Assembly: GCA_026413755.1 (NCBI GenBank)
Contig: JAOAKH010000003.1
Span: 1-64,000, forward strand
Origin: Acidilobaceae archaeon
GTDB taxonomy: Archaea > Thermoproteota > Thermoprotei_A > Sulfolobales > Acidilobaceae
Reading direction: 5' to 3'
DNA length: 64,000 bases
Position numbers and translations under genes: made by a program. The notes beneath the pieces were generated by a model, which had not been told where the DNA came from, did not search any database, and saw only the letters and a list, made by a program, of their open reading frames with translations. Below, piece by piece: positions 37,873 to 44,906 of the stretch (the stretch's first letter is position 1; every line of letters starts with the position of its first letter).

Positions 37873-38472
37873 GTGAGGGCCCAGGAGGCAGCAGAGCTCC
37901 TCCTGAAGGCCAGCGAGCCAATAAGGGGCGGCAGCCTCGGCTACTCTGCGTACCACGTCCTCCTGGCCCTGAGGCTCTCCTCTTCTTCCCCTGTGGGCAG
38001 GATAAGGCTCTCGCAGGCCCTCAGGATAGGAGAGGCCTCGGCCAAGACGCTTATAGCTAGATTGAAGGAGCTGGGGCTCGTGGAGGCCTTCCCAGAAGGC
38101 ATAAGGGCAAGCAAGAGGGGAGAGGAGGTCTTGAAGGTCATAGAGGCCTCGATAGAGATCAGCCAGGCTAGCCTACCCTTCAAGGGTTGGGAAAGCGCTG
38201 TAGCCGTAACTATTATCTCTCTCCCTCCTCCGAAGGACCTAGTGGGGGTGTACACGGTAAGGGACAAGGTCGTCAGAGAGGGGTGCGAGAAAGTCATAGT
38301 AGGGGGTAGGGAAGGGGGCGAAACCTTTTACCCAGGGCTGCCGAGCGACGTCAAAGCCCTCATAGACGCTGGGCTCTCAAGCAAGGGAGAGGGCACCCTC
38401 ATAATAGTTCCAGAGGAGTGCAGACAGCTTCTCATAAACGCCTCCCTCCGCCTGCTCTCCACAACGAAGTAA
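37873..38472 (+). CDS. HTH protein, DUF4443-like
   Basis: A 199-residue protein. The N-terminal winged helix (about 20-80) reads SAYHVLLALRLSSSSPVGRIRLSQALRIGEASAKTLIARLKELGLVE. The C-terminal domain (about 95-199) is alpha/beta, including VAVTIISLPPPKDLVGVYTVRDKVVREGC and LIDAGLSSKGEGTLIIVPEE, resembling the archaeal DUF4443 family. It is probably a transcription factor with a ligand-binding domain; the ligand is unknown. GTG start, about ten bases after the predicted transcription start. The palindrome before its promoter may be its own operator. Confidence 0.65.
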   Translation: MRAQEAAELLLKASEPIRGGSLGYSAYHVLLALRLSSSSPVGRIRLSQALRIGEASAKTLIARLKELGLVEAFPEGIRASKRGEEVLKVIEASIEISQASLPFKGWESAVAVTIISLPPPKDLVGVYTVRDKVVREGCEKVIVGGREGGETFYPGLPSDVKALIDAGLSSKGEGTLIIVPEECRQLLINASLRLLSTTK

Positions 38473-38521: not shown

Positions 38522-41500
38522 GTGTTGAGGCAACAGTCCCTCTTCTTAGTGCTGCTTATCCTCCTGCCTCTGCCGGGGGCGCTCGTAGGGGGCGCCTCGC
38601 ATGATAGCGAGGAGCTATATATAGTTTTCGCGCCCCTCTTCAGCAAAGAAGGCCTGGGGCCTCTCAAGTCCTCTGCAGAGCTGTTTGGAGGGGAGGTGAT
38701 GGATGAGTTCCCAACGCTAGGGGCGGCTCTCGTGAAGGGGCCTCGCGAGCTGGCCCGCGCCCTGAGGCAGCTGGGTTATATAGTGTCTCCTAACTTGCAG
38801 CTCCAGCTAATCTCTCCTCTCTCGTCTGAGGAGGTCTCTCTGCGTTACAGCGTTCCCAGCATAGGCGCCCCTGGCGCGTGGGCGCTTGGGCTAAATGGGA
38901 GCGGCGTGAGGGTGGCAGTAATAGATACAGGCATAGAGAACAGCCATCCCTGGCTAATGAGGGGTAACAGGAGCGTGGTGGTTTGGGAGGTAGATGCTAC
39001 GGAGAGCGGGGAGGTGGACTACTGTGGCAAGGGAACTCGGCATGCCAGCATCCACGGAACCCACGTGGCAGGCATAATAGCTAGCCAGAGCCCCGACCGC
39101 AGAGGGGTTGCTCCTGGCGCCCTGCTGTATGATATTATAGCTTTCTCAAAGAGATCTGACTGCATTTCTACTGACGAGTCAACGCTCCTAAGGGCTCTGG
39201 AGCACGCGCTGAGGGGTCCCGATGGGAGGCCGAACTCAGGGGACGAGGCCGACGTGATAAACCTAAGCGTGGGCGCCCTATTCAGCCCTGAGCTGATCTA
39301 CCCAGCAGTGAGAGGCTTCCTCTCAAGGCCCGCTATCGTTGAGGCCCTGGAGAGGGCGGCAGCTATGAACAAGGTGATCGTGGTCGCAGCAGGTAACTGG
39401 TACGGCATAAACCTGTACAACCTCCTCTGCCTCGCTGCCGGCGTCATCTGCGTGGGCGCTGCGGACGACGGGAGAAGCGCAGGGGCAGGGGACGACTCGC
39501 TGGCCCCCTTCACCTCCAGGGGCCCAGGGTTCCCGGGCATAATGGTGCCGCACCTCGTGGCTCCAGGGGTTTTAGTTGAGTCCTCTGTACCCACGGAAAC
39601 GGGACGCCTCTCGTATCCTCTCTCTGGCACCTCCATGGCCGCGCCCCACGTGGCGGGGGCCGCTGCTATCATAGTTCAGCAGGCAAAGAGGGAGGGGGCC
39701 GTTAGCCCGCACGAGGTGCTCAGGGCCCTGGCGCAGACAGCGAGAGACGTGAAGGGGTACAAGTATACCTTCTGGGGCCAGAGGGCTGTGATACCCATAG
39801 AGGCGACCACAGTTTCCGACCAGGGGGCAGGCCTCCTAAACGTCTCTGCTGCGGTGAGGAGAGAAGTAATCATAGATCTGGGCGGGAGGCCCTTCGCGCA
39901 CCTCCTAGCCTCTAGATCTGGGAAGCTGGAGCTGAGGGTGGTTAGCCTCTCAGATAGGCCGCTGGAGTTCACGCTTAGCGTGGTTGCGAAAGAGGAGCAC
40001 AGCCTGCGCGAGGTCTCAGGCTTCTCCCTAAACGTCTCTAGGCTGCTCTTACCTCCCCGCTCCTCTGCCTCCGTGGAGCTCACCTTCAAGGACCTCCCAG
40101 TGGGGACCTACGGAGGCTACGTGATGCTCAGGGGAGACTCCGCCACATACAGGTTCCCCTTCCTCCTCACAGTTCCCGTGGAGCTGCCGCCCGAGGGAGG
40201 GCTTTTGGCCCAGAGCATAAACCTCAGGGTCATCTCCAGGAGCCTAAGGGACGTGCCCATGCTATACGTTAACGTGAAGAGCCCCTTCCCCGACCCCCTC
40301 TTCCTCAGCGCGGCCGTGCGCTCAGAGCTCTACTACAGCGTGGCGCCAGAGATAGCTGTGATCTCCCCCTTCGGCACCGTGAGCTCCTCCTACGACTACA
40401 ACCACTTCTACCTGTTCCTTGAGCCAGAGCTATACCTCCTGATCCCCCGCGTGTACTCGCTCGTGGCCTCTCCCGTGGAGCTAAGGCTCCTCATGGGCGC
40501 GGTCTCCCCTGCAGAGGGAGTTCGCAGGGCCCTTGAAGCTGTCTCCTCCCTCTCTGCTAGGCTAGAGGCCCTCGAGCTAGAGGTGAGGAACCTGCAGGCC
40601 TCTGTGACGAACCTCCATGCTTCCCTCGTGAACCTAGAGGCAGCCTTAAGGGCCCTCAAGGCAGAGGCCAGGAGGCTAAACCAATCCATAGAGGCCCTCC
40701 AGCGCTCTGTCGGAGAGCTAGAGAGGAGCCTCAGGGCGCTCAGGCAAGAGCTGCAGCAGGAGTCCGAAGCGCGGAAGGCGGACGTGGCGCGCTTAGAGCA
40801 GTCCATAAGGGCCCTCGGCCAGTCCCTCTCGGCGCTTGAGGAGAGCCTAAAGGCCCTCAGGCGCGAGCTCCAGAGGGAGGTAGAGGAGAGGAAGGCCGAG
40901 GTGGCGAGGCTCGAGCAGCTCTTAAAGCAGGAGTCAGCCACGCTGGAGAGGCTTGTACAGCAGGAGTCGGACCTGCGCAGGGCTGACGCGGCGCGCCTGA
41001 ACCAGAGCATAGGGCTGCTGGAGAGGGCCCTGAGGGCAGTGGAGGAAGCAGTCAGAGCTCTACGAGGAGACCTCCAGCGTGAGGCAGAAGCTAGGAGGGC
41101 TGAGGACGCCAGGCTGGAGAGGCTAATAGTTAACGAATCAGAAGCCAGGAGGGCCGAGATAGCCAGGCTTGAGGGCGCCCTCAGGGGTCTTCAGCAAGTA
41201 GTAGCTTCCCTCGAGGGCAGCCTGAGGGCCCTCAGAGTGAGCCTCGACTCTCTTGAGAAAAGGGCAGCCCTCGTCAATGAGAGCCTGAGGGCAGCTATAA
41301 GGGCTGAGGCGGAGAGGATATCTAGGCTTGAGGCGGAGGCGAGGGCGCTGAGGGCCGGCTTGGAGGAAGCTTCTAGGGATCTCGGCGAGAGGCTGAGCGC
41401 CCTGAACAAGGAGCTAGAGAGGAGGTCAGCGGAGCTCTCCCAGCTTGCAAGGAGTCACGAGGATCTCTCCATTAAGATGGAGGCAGAGGTGCACAGGCTG

Positions 41501-41593
41501 AGGGAGGAACTGGACCTATACAAGCTCGTCGCAATAGGCAGCTTGCTGTTGGCCTTGCTCTCCATAGGCATCGCGTTCCGTCGCAGACAGTAG
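38522..41593 (+). CDS. Membrane-anchored subtilisin-like protease with coiled-coil stalk, copy 1
   Basis: A 1023-residue secreted S8 protease. Signal peptide at about 1-25 (SLFLVLLILLPLPGALVGGA); inhibitor-like propeptide (about 31-100); catalytic domain with Asp135 (VIDTG), His181 (HGTHVAG) and Ser371 (GTSMAAPHVAG). Beta-rich domains span about 440-660. A coiled coil of about 300 residues (about 675-985) is rich in ALR, LERS and ARLE units. A C-terminal membrane helix (about 1000-1018) and the tail FRRRQ complete it. It should sit outside the membrane with the protease held away by the stalk. A TATA box (CTATAAG, about 38489) and GGGAGGGAG precede GTG 38522. Tandem paralog downstream. Confidence 0.9.
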   Translation: MLRQQSLFLVLLILLPLPGALVGGASHDSEELYIVFAPLFSKEGLGPLKSSAELFGGEVMDEFPTLGAALVKGPRELARALRQLGYIVSPNLQLQLISPLSSEEVSLRYSVPSIGAPGAWALGLNGSGVRVAVIDTGIENSHPWLMRGNRSVVVWEVDATESGEVDYCGKGTRHASIHGTHVAGIIASQSPDRRGVAPGALLYDIIAFSKRSDCISTDESTLLRALEHALRGPDGRPNSGDEADVINLSVGALFSPELIYPAVRGFLSRPAIVEALERAAAMNKVIVVAAGNWYGINLYNLLCLAAGVICVGAADDGRSAGAGDDSLAPFTSRGPGFPGIMVPHLVAPGVLVESSVPTETGRLSYPLSGTSMAAPHVAGAAAIIVQQAKREGAVSPHEVLRALAQTARDVKGYKYTFWGQRAVIPIEATTVSDQGAGLLNVSAAVRREVIIDLGGRPFAHLLASRSGKLELRVVSLSDRPLEFTLSVVAKEEHSLREVSGFSLNVSRLLLPPRSSASVELTFKDLPVGTYGGYVMLRGDSATYRFPFLLTVPVELPPEGGLLAQSINLRVISRSLRDVPMLYVNVKSPFPDPLFLSAAVRSELYYSVAPEIAVISPFGTVSSSYDYNHFYLFLEPELYLLIPRVYSLVASPVELRLLMGAVSPAEGVRRALEAVSSLSARLEALELEVRNLQASVTNLHASLVNLEAALRALKAEARRLNQSIEALQRSVGELERSLRALRQELQQESEARKADVARLEQSIRALGQSLSALEESLKALRRELQREVEERKAEVARLEQLLKQESATLERLVQQESDLRRADAARLNQSIGLLERALRAVEEAVRALRGDLQREAEARRAEDARLERLIVNESEARRAEIARLEGALRGLQQVVASLEGSLRALRVSLDSLEKRAALVNESLRAAIRAEAERISRLEAEARALRAGLEEASRDLGERLSALNKELERRSAELSQLARSHEDLSIKMEAEVHRLREELDLYKLVAIGSLLLALLSIGIAFRRRQ

Positions 41594-41687
41594 CTAGCCC
41601 ATTTGGGCCATAGCTAGAGGGCCAGAACCTCTTTAGAGAAAACCATATAAGTTCGCATTTAGCGGTGAAGGAGTGAGGTAAGTCAAG

Positions 41688-44600
41688 TTGCTTAGAACTT
41701 TCATGGGAGCTCTAGTTCTCCTAATGATGTTGCTGAGCACGTTCCCCGTTCATGCGTTCTCTAAGAGCCCTAAGGGCGAAGAGGCAGAGTTCCTCGTCTT
41801 CGGCCCATACCCCTCTAGCAAGGAGAGTATGGAGTCTCTCAAGTCCGCGGTTAGGTCTGCAGGAGGGGCAGTTCTCGAGGAGTTCCCACTGCTAGGCGGC
41901 GTCCTGATCAGAGCCTCCCAGGAGGCCGTTAGGAGGCTCTCCTCCCTTGGATACGAGGTCTACATTAACTCTCAGCTCCAGCTCATAGAACCCAGAGAAG
42001 AGCCGACGGCGTCCCTGGAGCCCATGGTGAGAGTAAGCGTTCCCAGCATAGGCGCCCCCTCTGCTTGGGCAATGGGGCTGAACGGGAGCGGCGTTAGGGT
42101 GGCAGTCATAGATACCGGTATTTTCGACTCTCACCCGTGGTTCATGAGAGGCGGGAGGAGCATAGTCGTGTGGGAGTACAACGCCACTGATGCGCGCGAG
42201 GTGGACTACTGCGGCAAAGGCACAGCTGATGCATCAGATCACGGAACTCACGTCGCGGGCATAATAGCTAGCCAGAACGTTACGTCCAGGGGCGTTGCTC
42301 CAGGCGTAGTTCTCTACGACATAATAGTCTTCGCCCGTCCATGTCGTACTACTACCGATGCAATTATTGCCAGGGGAGTGGAGAGAGCGCTGCTGGGCCC
42401 GGACAACCAGCCTGGCAGCGGCGATGAGCCACACATAATTACCATGAGCCTAGGCGCGGTAGTTCATCCCTCGACTCAGTATGCTATATACGTTGGCGCA
42501 GTACCCAAGCCCGCTGTTATTGAGGTGTTGGAGAGGGCGGCCTCGAGAGCCGTAGTGACGGTCGCTGCAGGGAACAACTACGGGATTAATTACTTCAACT
42601 ACCTCTGCCTTGCTAGCGGCGTCATATGCGTTGGAGCTACTGACGACCGGAGGACCTTGACCGCTGCGGACGACAGGATGGCTAGCTTCAGCTCCAGAGG
42701 CCCAGGCCTCCCAGGCATGATGGTGCCCCTAGTCTCTGCGCCAGGGGTGTCCATAGTCTCTGCCTCAGTTCCAGAGAGGGCTGCTGGCCGTGTGCCCACT
42801 AGGGCTCTCAGCGGCACCTCGATGGCGACTCCTCATGCTGCCGGGGCAGCCGCTATAATAATCCAACAGTTCCTGAGCCAAGGCAGGCCTCTGGACCCAG
42901 CGGAGGTCGCTAAGGCCCTAGCGCACACTGCAAGGGACGTGCTAGTGGGCAACTACAACCCAGGGCTTACCGTGAGCACCATCACAGATCATGGGGCAGG
43001 ACAGATCAACTTAACGGCTGCAGTGTCCAGGCTGGTGAGCATGGACTCAGGAGGCAGGCCTTTCGTGCACATGTTCTCCCCTGTCCCCTCCGGCTCCTTC
43101 TCGTTCAGGGTCATTAACATAGCGGGCTCTGCCGTGGATCTGGAGGTGAGCATAGTAGCTAGATACGAGTACGATCCAGATTTAGTGAACTTAACTGACC
43201 GATTCTCCGTTAGCCACTCGAGACTCTCCCTGCCGCCAGGGGGTTCTGCAAGCATAACGGTGAGCTTTAGGGACCTTCCGCCTGGGGTAGCGGGGGGCTA
43301 CGTGGTCCTGAGAGGCCACGGGATTACCCACAGGTTCCCATTCCTCATAACTGTTCCCGTAGACGTTAGGCCTGACCTTCCGTGGAACGGTGGAATTGCC
43401 GTAATGAGGCTCAACTCACGGGACAACGTTTACGATCACCCCGTTCTGTTCGTGAACGTGCGCAGTGCAGCCATAGAGCCCCTGTTTGTGGTGCTACAGA
43501 CAGGCGGCGGAACTGTGTTTACGATATCCGAGTCTAGAATTGTTCTCACATCTCCCACCTTCCTCAACTCTGCTGGCAGGGTGCACTACGTTAGCGAACA
43601 GGGCCTCTACATGCTAACGCTGAACCCAAGCGGCTCAATTACTACTCCTGTGGGCATAGCTATTGTAGTGGGTTCCGTCACCAGTAACATAGAGAGGCTC
43701 GACATGGCCGTCGAGGAGCTCCGGGGCTCTGTATGGATCCTGGAGATTACCGCGAGCTTCCTAAGGTATTCGCTGGAGGTCCTGAGGCAGGAGCTGCAGA
43801 GTAGCACCTCTAGGCTAGAGCAGATGATAAGGCAGGAGTCGGAGCAGAGAAAGGCGGAGATAGAGAGGCTAGAGAGAGCTATCAGCGGCGTTCAGAGCTC
43901 CCTTTCCTCCCTAGAGCAGAGCGTGAGGTCCCTAGCTCAGCAGCTACAGAGCGAGGTAGAGGCCAGAAAGAGAGAGATAGCGAGGCTAGATGAAGCGATC
44001 AACAGCCTAGCTCAGCAGCTACAGAGCGAGGTAGAGGCCAGAAAGAGAGAGATAGCGAGGCTGGAGGAGTCCATTAGAAACCTCCAACAGTCCGTTCAGT
44101 CGCTTGAGAGGAGCCTCTCTATCCTGAGGATGGAGCTACAGAGAGAGATAGCTGCGAGAAGGGCAGAAATAGAGAGGCTAGAGCAGCTACTGAGGCAGGA
44201 GTCAGAGGCTAGAAGAGCTGAGGACGCCAGGCTAGAGAGGCTAATAGTCAGCGAGTCAGAGGACAGGAAAGCAGAAATAAGGCGCTTGAACCAGAGCATA
44301 GGGCTGCTGGAGAGGGCCCTGAGGGCAGTAGAGGAAGCAGTCAGAGCTCTGCGAGGAGACCTCCAGCGCGAGTCAGAGGCTAGGAGAGCTGAGGACGCCA
44401 GGCTAGAGAGGCTAATAGTCAGCGAGGCAGAAGCTAGAAGAGCTGAGATAGCCAGGCTCGAGGGTGCCCTCAGGGGCGTCCAGCAGGCCGTAGCTTCTCT
44501 TGAGGGCAGCCTGAGGGCCCTCAGAGTGAGCCTTGAGTCCCTCGAGAGGAGGGCCGTCCTCATGAACGAGAGCCTGAGGGCAGCAATAAGGGCTGAGGCG

Positions 44601-44906
44601 GAGAGGATATCTAGGCTCGAAGCGGAGGCGAGGGCGCTGAGGGCCAGCATAGAGGCGGCCTCTAGGGAGCTCAGCGAGAGGCTGAGCGCCCTGAACAGGG
44701 AGCTAGAGAGGAGGTCAGCAGAGCTCTCCCGGCAGATAGAGGCTACCTCTTCAGAGCTAGAGAGGGAGCTAGGAGAGAGGGCCTCAGAGATCCAGAGCCT
44801 CAGGCAGGAGCACGACACTACCCGTGCTATTAGCCTGGGCAGCACTTTGCTGGCACTGATAGCGCTGTTGCTGGCAGCCTACCAGGTCTTCCTCAGGCGC
44901 TTCTAG
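41688..44906 (+). CDS. Membrane-anchored subtilisin-like protease with coiled-coil stalk, copy 2
   Basis: A 1072-residue paralog of the preceding protease with the same order: signal peptide (about 1-25, ALVLLMMLLSTFPVHAF), propeptide, S8 domain with Asp142 (VIDTG), His188 (HGTHVAG) and Ser378 (GTSMATPHAAG). Beta-rich domains follow, then a longer coiled coil (about 665-1045), a membrane helix (about 1047-1067) and the tail QVFLRRF. The stalk carries internal DNA repeats. Near the stalk ends the two genes are almost identical in DNA, while their catalytic domains differ much more. Own TATA box (ATATAAG, about 41645) and GAGGT nine bases before TTG 41688. Confidence 0.9.
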   Translation: MLRTFMGALVLLMMLLSTFPVHAFSKSPKGEEAEFLVFGPYPSSKESMESLKSAVRSAGGAVLEEFPLLGGVLIRASQEAVRRLSSLGYEVYINSQLQLIEPREEPTASLEPMVRVSVPSIGAPSAWAMGLNGSGVRVAVIDTGIFDSHPWFMRGGRSIVVWEYNATDAREVDYCGKGTADASDHGTHVAGIIASQNVTSRGVAPGVVLYDIIVFARPCRTTTDAIIARGVERALLGPDNQPGSGDEPHIITMSLGAVVHPSTQYAIYVGAVPKPAVIEVLERAASRAVVTVAAGNNYGINYFNYLCLASGVICVGATDDRRTLTAADDRMASFSSRGPGLPGMMVPLVSAPGVSIVSASVPERAAGRVPTRALSGTSMATPHAAGAAAIIIQQFLSQGRPLDPAEVAKALAHTARDVLVGNYNPGLTVSTITDHGAGQINLTAAVSRLVSMDSGGRPFVHMFSPVPSGSFSFRVINIAGSAVDLEVSIVARYEYDPDLVNLTDRFSVSHSRLSLPPGGSASITVSFRDLPPGVAGGYVVLRGHGITHRFPFLITVPVDVRPDLPWNGGIAVMRLNSRDNVYDHPVLFVNVRSAAIEPLFVVLQTGGGTVFTISESRIVLTSPTFLNSAGRVHYVSEQGLYMLTLNPSGSITTPVGIAIVVGSVTSNIERLDMAVEELRGSVWILEITASFLRYSLEVLRQELQSSTSRLEQMIRQESEQRKAEIERLERAISGVQSSLSSLEQSVRSLAQQLQSEVEARKREIARLDEAINSLAQQLQSEVEARKREIARLEESIRNLQQSVQSLERSLSILRMELQREIAARRAEIERLEQLLRQESEARRAEDARLERLIVSESEDRKAEIRRLNQSIGLLERALRAVEEAVRALRGDLQRESEARRAEDARLERLIVSEAEARRAEIARLEGALRGVQQAVASLEGSLRALRVSLESLERRAVLMNESLRAAIRAEAERISRLEAEARALRASIEAASRELSERLSALNRELERRSAELSRQIEATSSELERELGERASEIQSLRQEHDTTRAISLGSTLLALIALLLAAYQVFLRRF
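43931..44062 (+). repeat. 57-base direct repeat, period 75, in the stalk of protease 2
   Basis: Positions 43931-43987 and 44006-44062 are identical over 57 bases, 75 bases (25 codons) apart. They encode LAQQLQSEVEARKREIARL twice. This is a recent in-frame duplication that lengthens the coiled coil. Confidence 0.9.

Follow-up and report, generated by a model that had tools for sequence, protein, structure and literature searches.

The window, a 64,000-nucleotide stretch of DNA from an uncultured, hyperthermophilic archaeon, holds two large subtilase genes in tandem on the same strand, which we call copy A and copy B and whose ORF coordinates leave a gap of 94 bp between them. The genes and their parts, with positions in the window and the evidence in brackets, are as follows:

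38522..41593, + strand: copy A, stalked subtilase, 1023 aa, GTG start (ORF, Pfam, catalytic motifs, periodicity)
38522..38596, + strand: predicted signal peptide of copy A, ~aa 1-25 (hydrophobic N-terminal segment)
38897..39751, + strand: Peptidase_S8 domain of copy A, aa 126-410, with Asp135, His178, the oxyanion Asn and the GTS serine (motif from 369) (Pfam, motifs)
39752..40510, + strand: beta-rich region of copy A, aa 411-663 (alignment to the modelled copy B)
40511..41521, + strand: coiled-coil-type stalk of copy A, aa 664-1000, 337 aa, period 3.55 (periodicity)
41042..41491, + strand: block of the copy A stalk homogenised with copy B, aa 841-990 (identity, codon use)
41522..41578, + strand: predicted C-terminal membrane helix of copy A, ~aa 1001-1019, followed by an Arg-rich tail (hydrophobic segment)
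41688..44906, + strand: copy B, stalked subtilase, 1072 aa, TTG start (ORF, Pfam, catalytic motifs, periodicity)
41784..42002, + strand: propeptide-like domain of copy B, aa 33-105, beta-alpha-beta-beta-alpha-beta (AlphaFold2 model, pro-subtilisin matches)
42084..42941, + strand: Peptidase_S8 domain of copy B, aa 133-418, with Asp142, His185, Asn296 and Ser378 and conserved Cys175, 219, 307 and 314 (Pfam, alignment)
43035..43670, + strand: two beta domains of copy B, aa 450-661 (AlphaFold2 model)
43689..44825, + strand: coiled-coil-type stalk of copy B, ~aa 668-1046, period 3.56 (periodicity, AlphaFold2 model)
44331..44780, + strand: block of the copy B stalk homogenised with copy A, aa 882-1031 (identity, codon use)
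44826..44891, + strand: predicted C-terminal membrane helix of copy B, ~aa 1047-1068 (hydrophobic segment)

The first-pass annotation had proposed that each gene encodes, in one chain, an exported subtilase, a stalk of 300-380 residues and a C-terminal membrane anchor. The ORFs, the Pfam matches, the hydrophobic segments and the stalk period agree on this architecture, and the stalks measure 337 aa in copy A and ~380 aa in copy B. The C-terminal hydrophobic segments begin at ~1001 (A) and ~1047 (B), each with an Arg-containing tail behind it; export, topology and the coiled-coil state of both proteins are predictions. An HTH protein (CggR_N-like; window 37873-38472) is encoded on the same strand 49 bp upstream of copy A, and a gene of similar size holds the same place beside the stalked subtilase in a sister species (G001); a role for this protein as regulator of the subtilase pair is possible.

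The catalytic domains were matched to Peptidase_S8 (PF00082) with E values of 7e-38 in copy A and 4e-40 in copy B, and alignment showed the catalytic Asp, His and Ser and the oxyanion Asn to be intact in both. The triad, the oxyanion Asn and four Cys positions are kept in all 17 aligned members of the clade to which the two proteins belong. The Pfam scan of both copies returned neither a propeptide domain nor a thermopsin domain. An AlphaFold2 model of copy B, computed as a single chain from a 12-row alignment, contained a beta-alpha-beta-beta-alpha-beta domain (33-93), the S8 domain and beta domains at 450-556 and 570-661, with good confidence in most blocks of the head. The best PDB matches of this model were Vpr, ProN-Tk-SP and unprocessed pro-subtilisins. 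These matches support the view that the protein is a zymogen carrying a propeptide; the order of the modelled elements and the matches to pro-subtilisin structures are those of a subtilase-type propeptide fold. Tk-SP, Vpr, pernisine and similar secreted subtilases share with copies A and B the propeptide and the S8 domain, in several cases with a beta domain after it, but unlike them they do not combine a coiled-coil stalk with a C-terminal membrane helix.

The stalks lie in proline-free C-terminal stretches of ~340-390 aa, which start at residue 664 in copy A and 655 in copy B and extend to the end of the protein. Their hydrophobic periodicity peaks at 3.55-3.56 with a power of 6.6-7.0, a value that none of 2000 shuffles attained (99.9% quantile of the shuffles, ~2.0-2.2), and the coiled coil that had been proposed for the helical region withstands this check, with a handedness that probably differs from that of tetrabrachion. 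The latter is the separate S-layer stalk chain to which the protease STABLE binds in Staphylothermus marinus (PMC5744192). Tetrabrachion has a right-handed, tetrameric stalk built on 11-residue repeats, whereas the period in copies A and B is 3.56; the power at 11/3 (period 3.67) is 0.04 and 0.55, compared with 6.6 and 7.0 at the peak, and the periodicity test found no 11-residue period of the tetrabrachion type in either stalk. The measured period is longer than 7/2 and shorter than 18/5, compatible with a mixture of 7- and 11-residue repeats (25/7 or 32/9), and on the strength of this hydrophobic period the stalk is likely to be a nearly straight, slightly left-handed coiled coil. Two near-identical 25-aa units occur within the stalk of copy B. 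The AlphaFold2 model of copy B placed helices at 684-728, 739-860 and 876-1069, with a stalk pLDDT of only ~45-70 in this single-chain prediction.

At 0.1485 nm per residue, the calculated stalk length is ~50 nm for copy A and ~56-58 nm for copy B. Among related proteins, the protease stalks of the Aeropyrum-genus members have ~318-352 aa, compared with 380-387 aa in Aeropyrum S-layer candidates, and short-stalked family members (136-165 aa) are common; in the genome G004, for instance, the protease stalk has 160 aa against ~306-318 aa in its S-layer candidates. Such short-stalked copies rule out that stalk length always matches that of the S-layer stalk; long-stalked copies may reach the S-layer canopy where short-stalked ones may not. 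The stalks of some members, such as G064 and G066, are interrupted by proline, and their lengths were read individually, apart from the proline-free measurement. The trimer motif RhxxhE was counted 11, 7, 12 and 8 times in Aeropyrum-branch members versus 0.2-0.5 expected; it occurs twice in copy A (p 0.10) and once in copy B (p 0.50), which is not significant. Because of these counts, and because the predicted stalk core of both copies is rich in Glu and Arg, a single regular core is uncertain; by analogy with SlaB, parallel trimers are our best guess for the two stalks.

The source genome (G000) is a 1.12-Mb assembly in 51 contigs, 90% complete, which was searched by query sequence and in targeted stretches. 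It holds four S8 genes: copies A and B, a stalked paralogue on contig C8 (858 aa, with a 155-aa stalk of ~23 nm) and a stalkless one of 1344 aa on contig C22. Of 214 genomes of the order, 15 contain a match to the stalked-subtilase profile at E <= 1e-60, one of these only partial; when 398 genomes were sampled across the phylum, only two weak partial matches lay outside the order. One of the six genomes of the source organism's own genus is without a family match. The one-chain stalked subtilases (n=17, from two GTDB families) form one clade with support of 100/100, and the STABLE-like proteins (n=14) form a separate one with the same support; short (~440 aa) Aeropyrum subtilases branch outside the stalked clade. 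Since stalk and C-terminal membrane helix are present in all complete clade members, the fusion appears to be an inherited feature of the clade. Generic subtilases returned by a contig scan with active-site motif patterns were used as outgroups only; a profile built from the stalks mainly reflected one of its input sequences and listed only some of the coiled-coil proteins. An apparent split between stalk and protease in G033 proved to be a run of N in the contig and is not real. A second stalked-type subtilase in G004 (G004:C37:28428-29332) carries TAG and TAA stops and is a probable pseudogene. Another genome, G035, encodes a 1679-aa S8 protein with carboxypeptidase-regulatory repeats, a coiled coil (period 3.63) and a C-terminal helix (L046:10062-15101), which may have arisen as a stalked subtilase independently. 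The literature that we searched contained no description of the subtilase version of a one-chain stalked protease, which does not prove that none exists.

The contrast that the first-pass annotation drew with Staphylothermus, where protease and stalk are separate, is real and extends to a gene pair conserved across the order. In two single-contig genomes (G017 and G026), which we take to be Aeropyrum pernix K1 and A. camini, a stalkless subtilase of 1331 aa lies directly downstream of a tetrabrachion-like S-layer candidate of 1554 or 1621 aa (L176:3393-12294 in A. pernix; L177:3390-12497), the latter with a signal peptide, a beta-rich region, a ~380-aa stalk and a C-terminal helix. The S-layer gene pair that was to be looked for elsewhere is also present in several further genomes, including G053, presumably Staphylothermus hellenicus. 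A second such pair, consisting of a 1374-aa S8 protein and a 533-aa stalk protein, was noted at L213:5159-10970. STABLE identity was assigned to these subtilases by length, neighbourhood and relatedness, independently of S. marinus sequences, and 'tetrabrachion-like' is used of architecture only, because comparison of the Staphylothermus-like neighbour protein with the solved tetrabrachion fragment turned up no match. The STABLE-like proteins have ~1310-1345 aa, no stalk, ~200 extra residues between Asp and His and, in most cases, the motif GTSEATP. Copies A and B fall outside this group, from which they are divided by the separate 100/100 clades and by having no long Asp-His insert. The stalkless gene on C22 (L149:2989-7023) is STABLE-like and distinct from copies A and B, and no S-layer-type gene adjoins it; in its product, HGS replaces HGT at the catalytic His. 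STABLE on tetrabrachion resembles copies A and B in that a coiled-coil stalk holds a subtilase tens of nm above the membrane of a hyperthermophilic relative, but it consists of two chains, whereas in copies A and B protease and stalk are one.

A further comparison is offered by SlaB, the S-layer anchor of Sulfolobales, which has a signal peptide, beta domains, a coiled coil and a C-terminal membrane helix and forms a trimer (PMC10903991). Its likeness to copies A and B is one of topology only, in the succession of beta domains, coiled coil and C-terminal membrane helix; unlike them, it is without an enzyme and has, in S. acidocaldarius, a C-terminal helix of 132 aa. The SlaB model NF040788 matched only the coiled coil of copies A and B, at 26.5 bits against a cut-off of 700. 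SlaB-like proteins of 447 and 531 aa, each with a beta domain, a ~230-aa coiled coil and a C-terminal helix, are encoded in G059 and G048 (L142:2210-3553 and L141:2206-3801). The Sulfolobus protein M164_1049 is a SlaB paralogue that serves as a secondary stalk, and its homologue SSO1175 is a protease (PMC6712394). SSO1175/M164_1049 (SsMTP-1) combines an extracellular protease and a membrane anchor in one chain, as copies A and B do, and helps to hold the S-layer (PMC6712394, PMC3958906); in contrast to these subtilases, however, it is a thermopsin-like acid protease of ~600 aa, with no long coiled coil reported in the cited passages. One-chain stalked proteases are therefore not wholly new, with SSO1175/M164_1049 as the closest precedent, which lowers the novelty of copies A and B and leaves a role in the S-layer as the main rival to the function proposed below.

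The source genome encodes an S-layer candidate of its own on contig C11 (~40594-44415; L223:6595-10416), a 1273-aa protein with a signal peptide, a long beta-rich-looking region, a proline-free stalk at 943-1249 (307 aa, ~46 nm) and a C-terminal membrane helix. It has no Pfam family outside the coiled coil, and it was missed by the A. pernix S-layer query and found with a closer one. Because its stalk is similar in length, copies A and B probably stand among S-layer stalks. The same contig encodes a 1006-aa SBP_bac_5-like protein with a coiled coil at 866-985 and a C-terminal helix, and the genes after it encode two permeases and an ATPase of the oligopeptide type (L043:6100-12901). This stalked binding protein and the S-layer candidate suggest that a coiled-coil stalk with an anchor is a shared means of surface display and is not specific to proteases. 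The subtilase pair is adjacent to neither the transporter nor the S-layer gene. Related genomes encode binding proteins on an N-terminal anchor and a coiled coil, at the opposite end from the protease stalk (L138:3020-4492, L139:1636-3132, L140:3497-4936 and L169:11333-12793), and Peripla_BP_2 was found in the one that was scanned with Pfam.

We consider it probable, on balance, that copies A and B are nutritional proteases, anchored in the membrane and positioned at defined heights either below the S-layer or level with it, and the self-standing surface degradation system of the first-pass annotation is plausible. Both genes would encode secreted, membrane-anchored subtilisin zymogens, in which the signal peptide would export the chain, the propeptide, as is usual in the family, would assist the folding of the catalytic domain and then be removed, and the C-terminal helix would remain in the membrane. 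The stalk would be a parallel coiled coil, probably a trimer like that of SlaB, and would raise the heads by ~50-58 nm, about as far as or a little farther than the 46 nm calculated for the organism's S-layer candidate; the C8 paralogue with its 155-aa stalk would work at ~23 nm. The substrates of the proteases would be proteins that come into contact with the S-layer or pass it, and the stalked oligopeptide-binding protein may catch the resulting peptides for import. This mode would be like that of tetrabrachion-bound STABLE, the difference being that here the stalk is part of the protease itself. The nutritional role is suggested by the example of STABLE (PMC5744192), by the stalked peptide-binding protein and by the thermopsin-like proteases of Sulfolobus, which are made in peptide-rich media (PMC3958906).

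The alternative that survives best, although we think it unlikely, is that the two proteins are secondary S-layer stalks with a role in maturation, which tether or process the S-layer or trim its precursors. Such a role would agree with that of the SlaB paralogue and thermopsin-like protease M164_1049/SSO1175, for which genetics suggests it (PMC6712394), with the suggestion that STABLE cleaves the tetrabrachion precursor (PMC5744192) and with the closeness of the stalk lengths of A and B to that of the organism's S-layer candidate, but it fits less well with a family that is not fixed, being missing from one of six genomes of the genus and with copy A lost in the sister species. The family is moreover confined to 15 of the 214 genomes of the order, most of which presumably have S-layers, and the source genome retains a separate STABLE-like gene. 

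The history of the two copies bears on the importance of the stalk. Their heads are roughly 50% identical, with a same-codon use of 0.46, and a stalk block of ~150 aa is 83-97% identical at the amino-acid level; same-codon use rises to 0.75 in the windows covering copy A aa 839-958 (Fisher p 2e-7 against the heads), which we read as a sign of gene conversion between the stalks. In similarity to the homogenised block of copy A, the B copies of G000 and G001 hardly differ, so the conversion predates the species split. In G001, which is of the same genus, copy B has survived intact at the corresponding position with 85% identity, and the gap upstream of it contains a decayed remnant of copy A (a 177-bp stretch at 87% that takes in the membrane tail, with further shorter pieces at ~74%). 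A single stalked copy without a tandem partner is common in other related genomes. Since no complete clade member has lost the stalk, which is lineage-specific in length and has been homogenised between A and B, it seems to matter to these proteins, and this makes it quite improbable that anchoring is only temporary and that the head is freed by cleavage above the stalk and acts in the medium, as might be supposed from Sulfolobus SsMTP and SsMTP-1, which are predicted membrane proteins yet were found in the medium (PMC3958906); nor was any cleavage site recognised in the sequence. The hetero-oligomers of A and B that had been suggested do not hold up as an obligate complex, which we regard as very improbable because copy A has been lost in the sister species, and which partnerless paralogues and a difference of ~40-55 aa in stalk length also speak against, despite the tandem genes and the stalk blocks with largely matching codons; occasional mixing is possible, given the recently shared stalk sequence.

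A bolder extension of the nutritional reading, to which we attach only a small chance, is that the genus sets active subtilases at two heights, with the stalk as a ruler, and that these feed the stalked peptide receptor. If true, this would amount to layered digestion and uptake, in which the long copies would be level with the S-layer canopy and the short copy about halfway down. The analysis provides stalk lengths that can be tested and S-layer gene candidates from Aeropyrum and an uncultured relative. The one-chain stalked subtilases represent a small family that was previously without a name, and together with the gene pairs they suggest that S-layer-type stalked proteases are widespread in the order and arose by at least two routes, either as a gene pair or by fusion into one chain; Sulfolobus has a thermopsin version.
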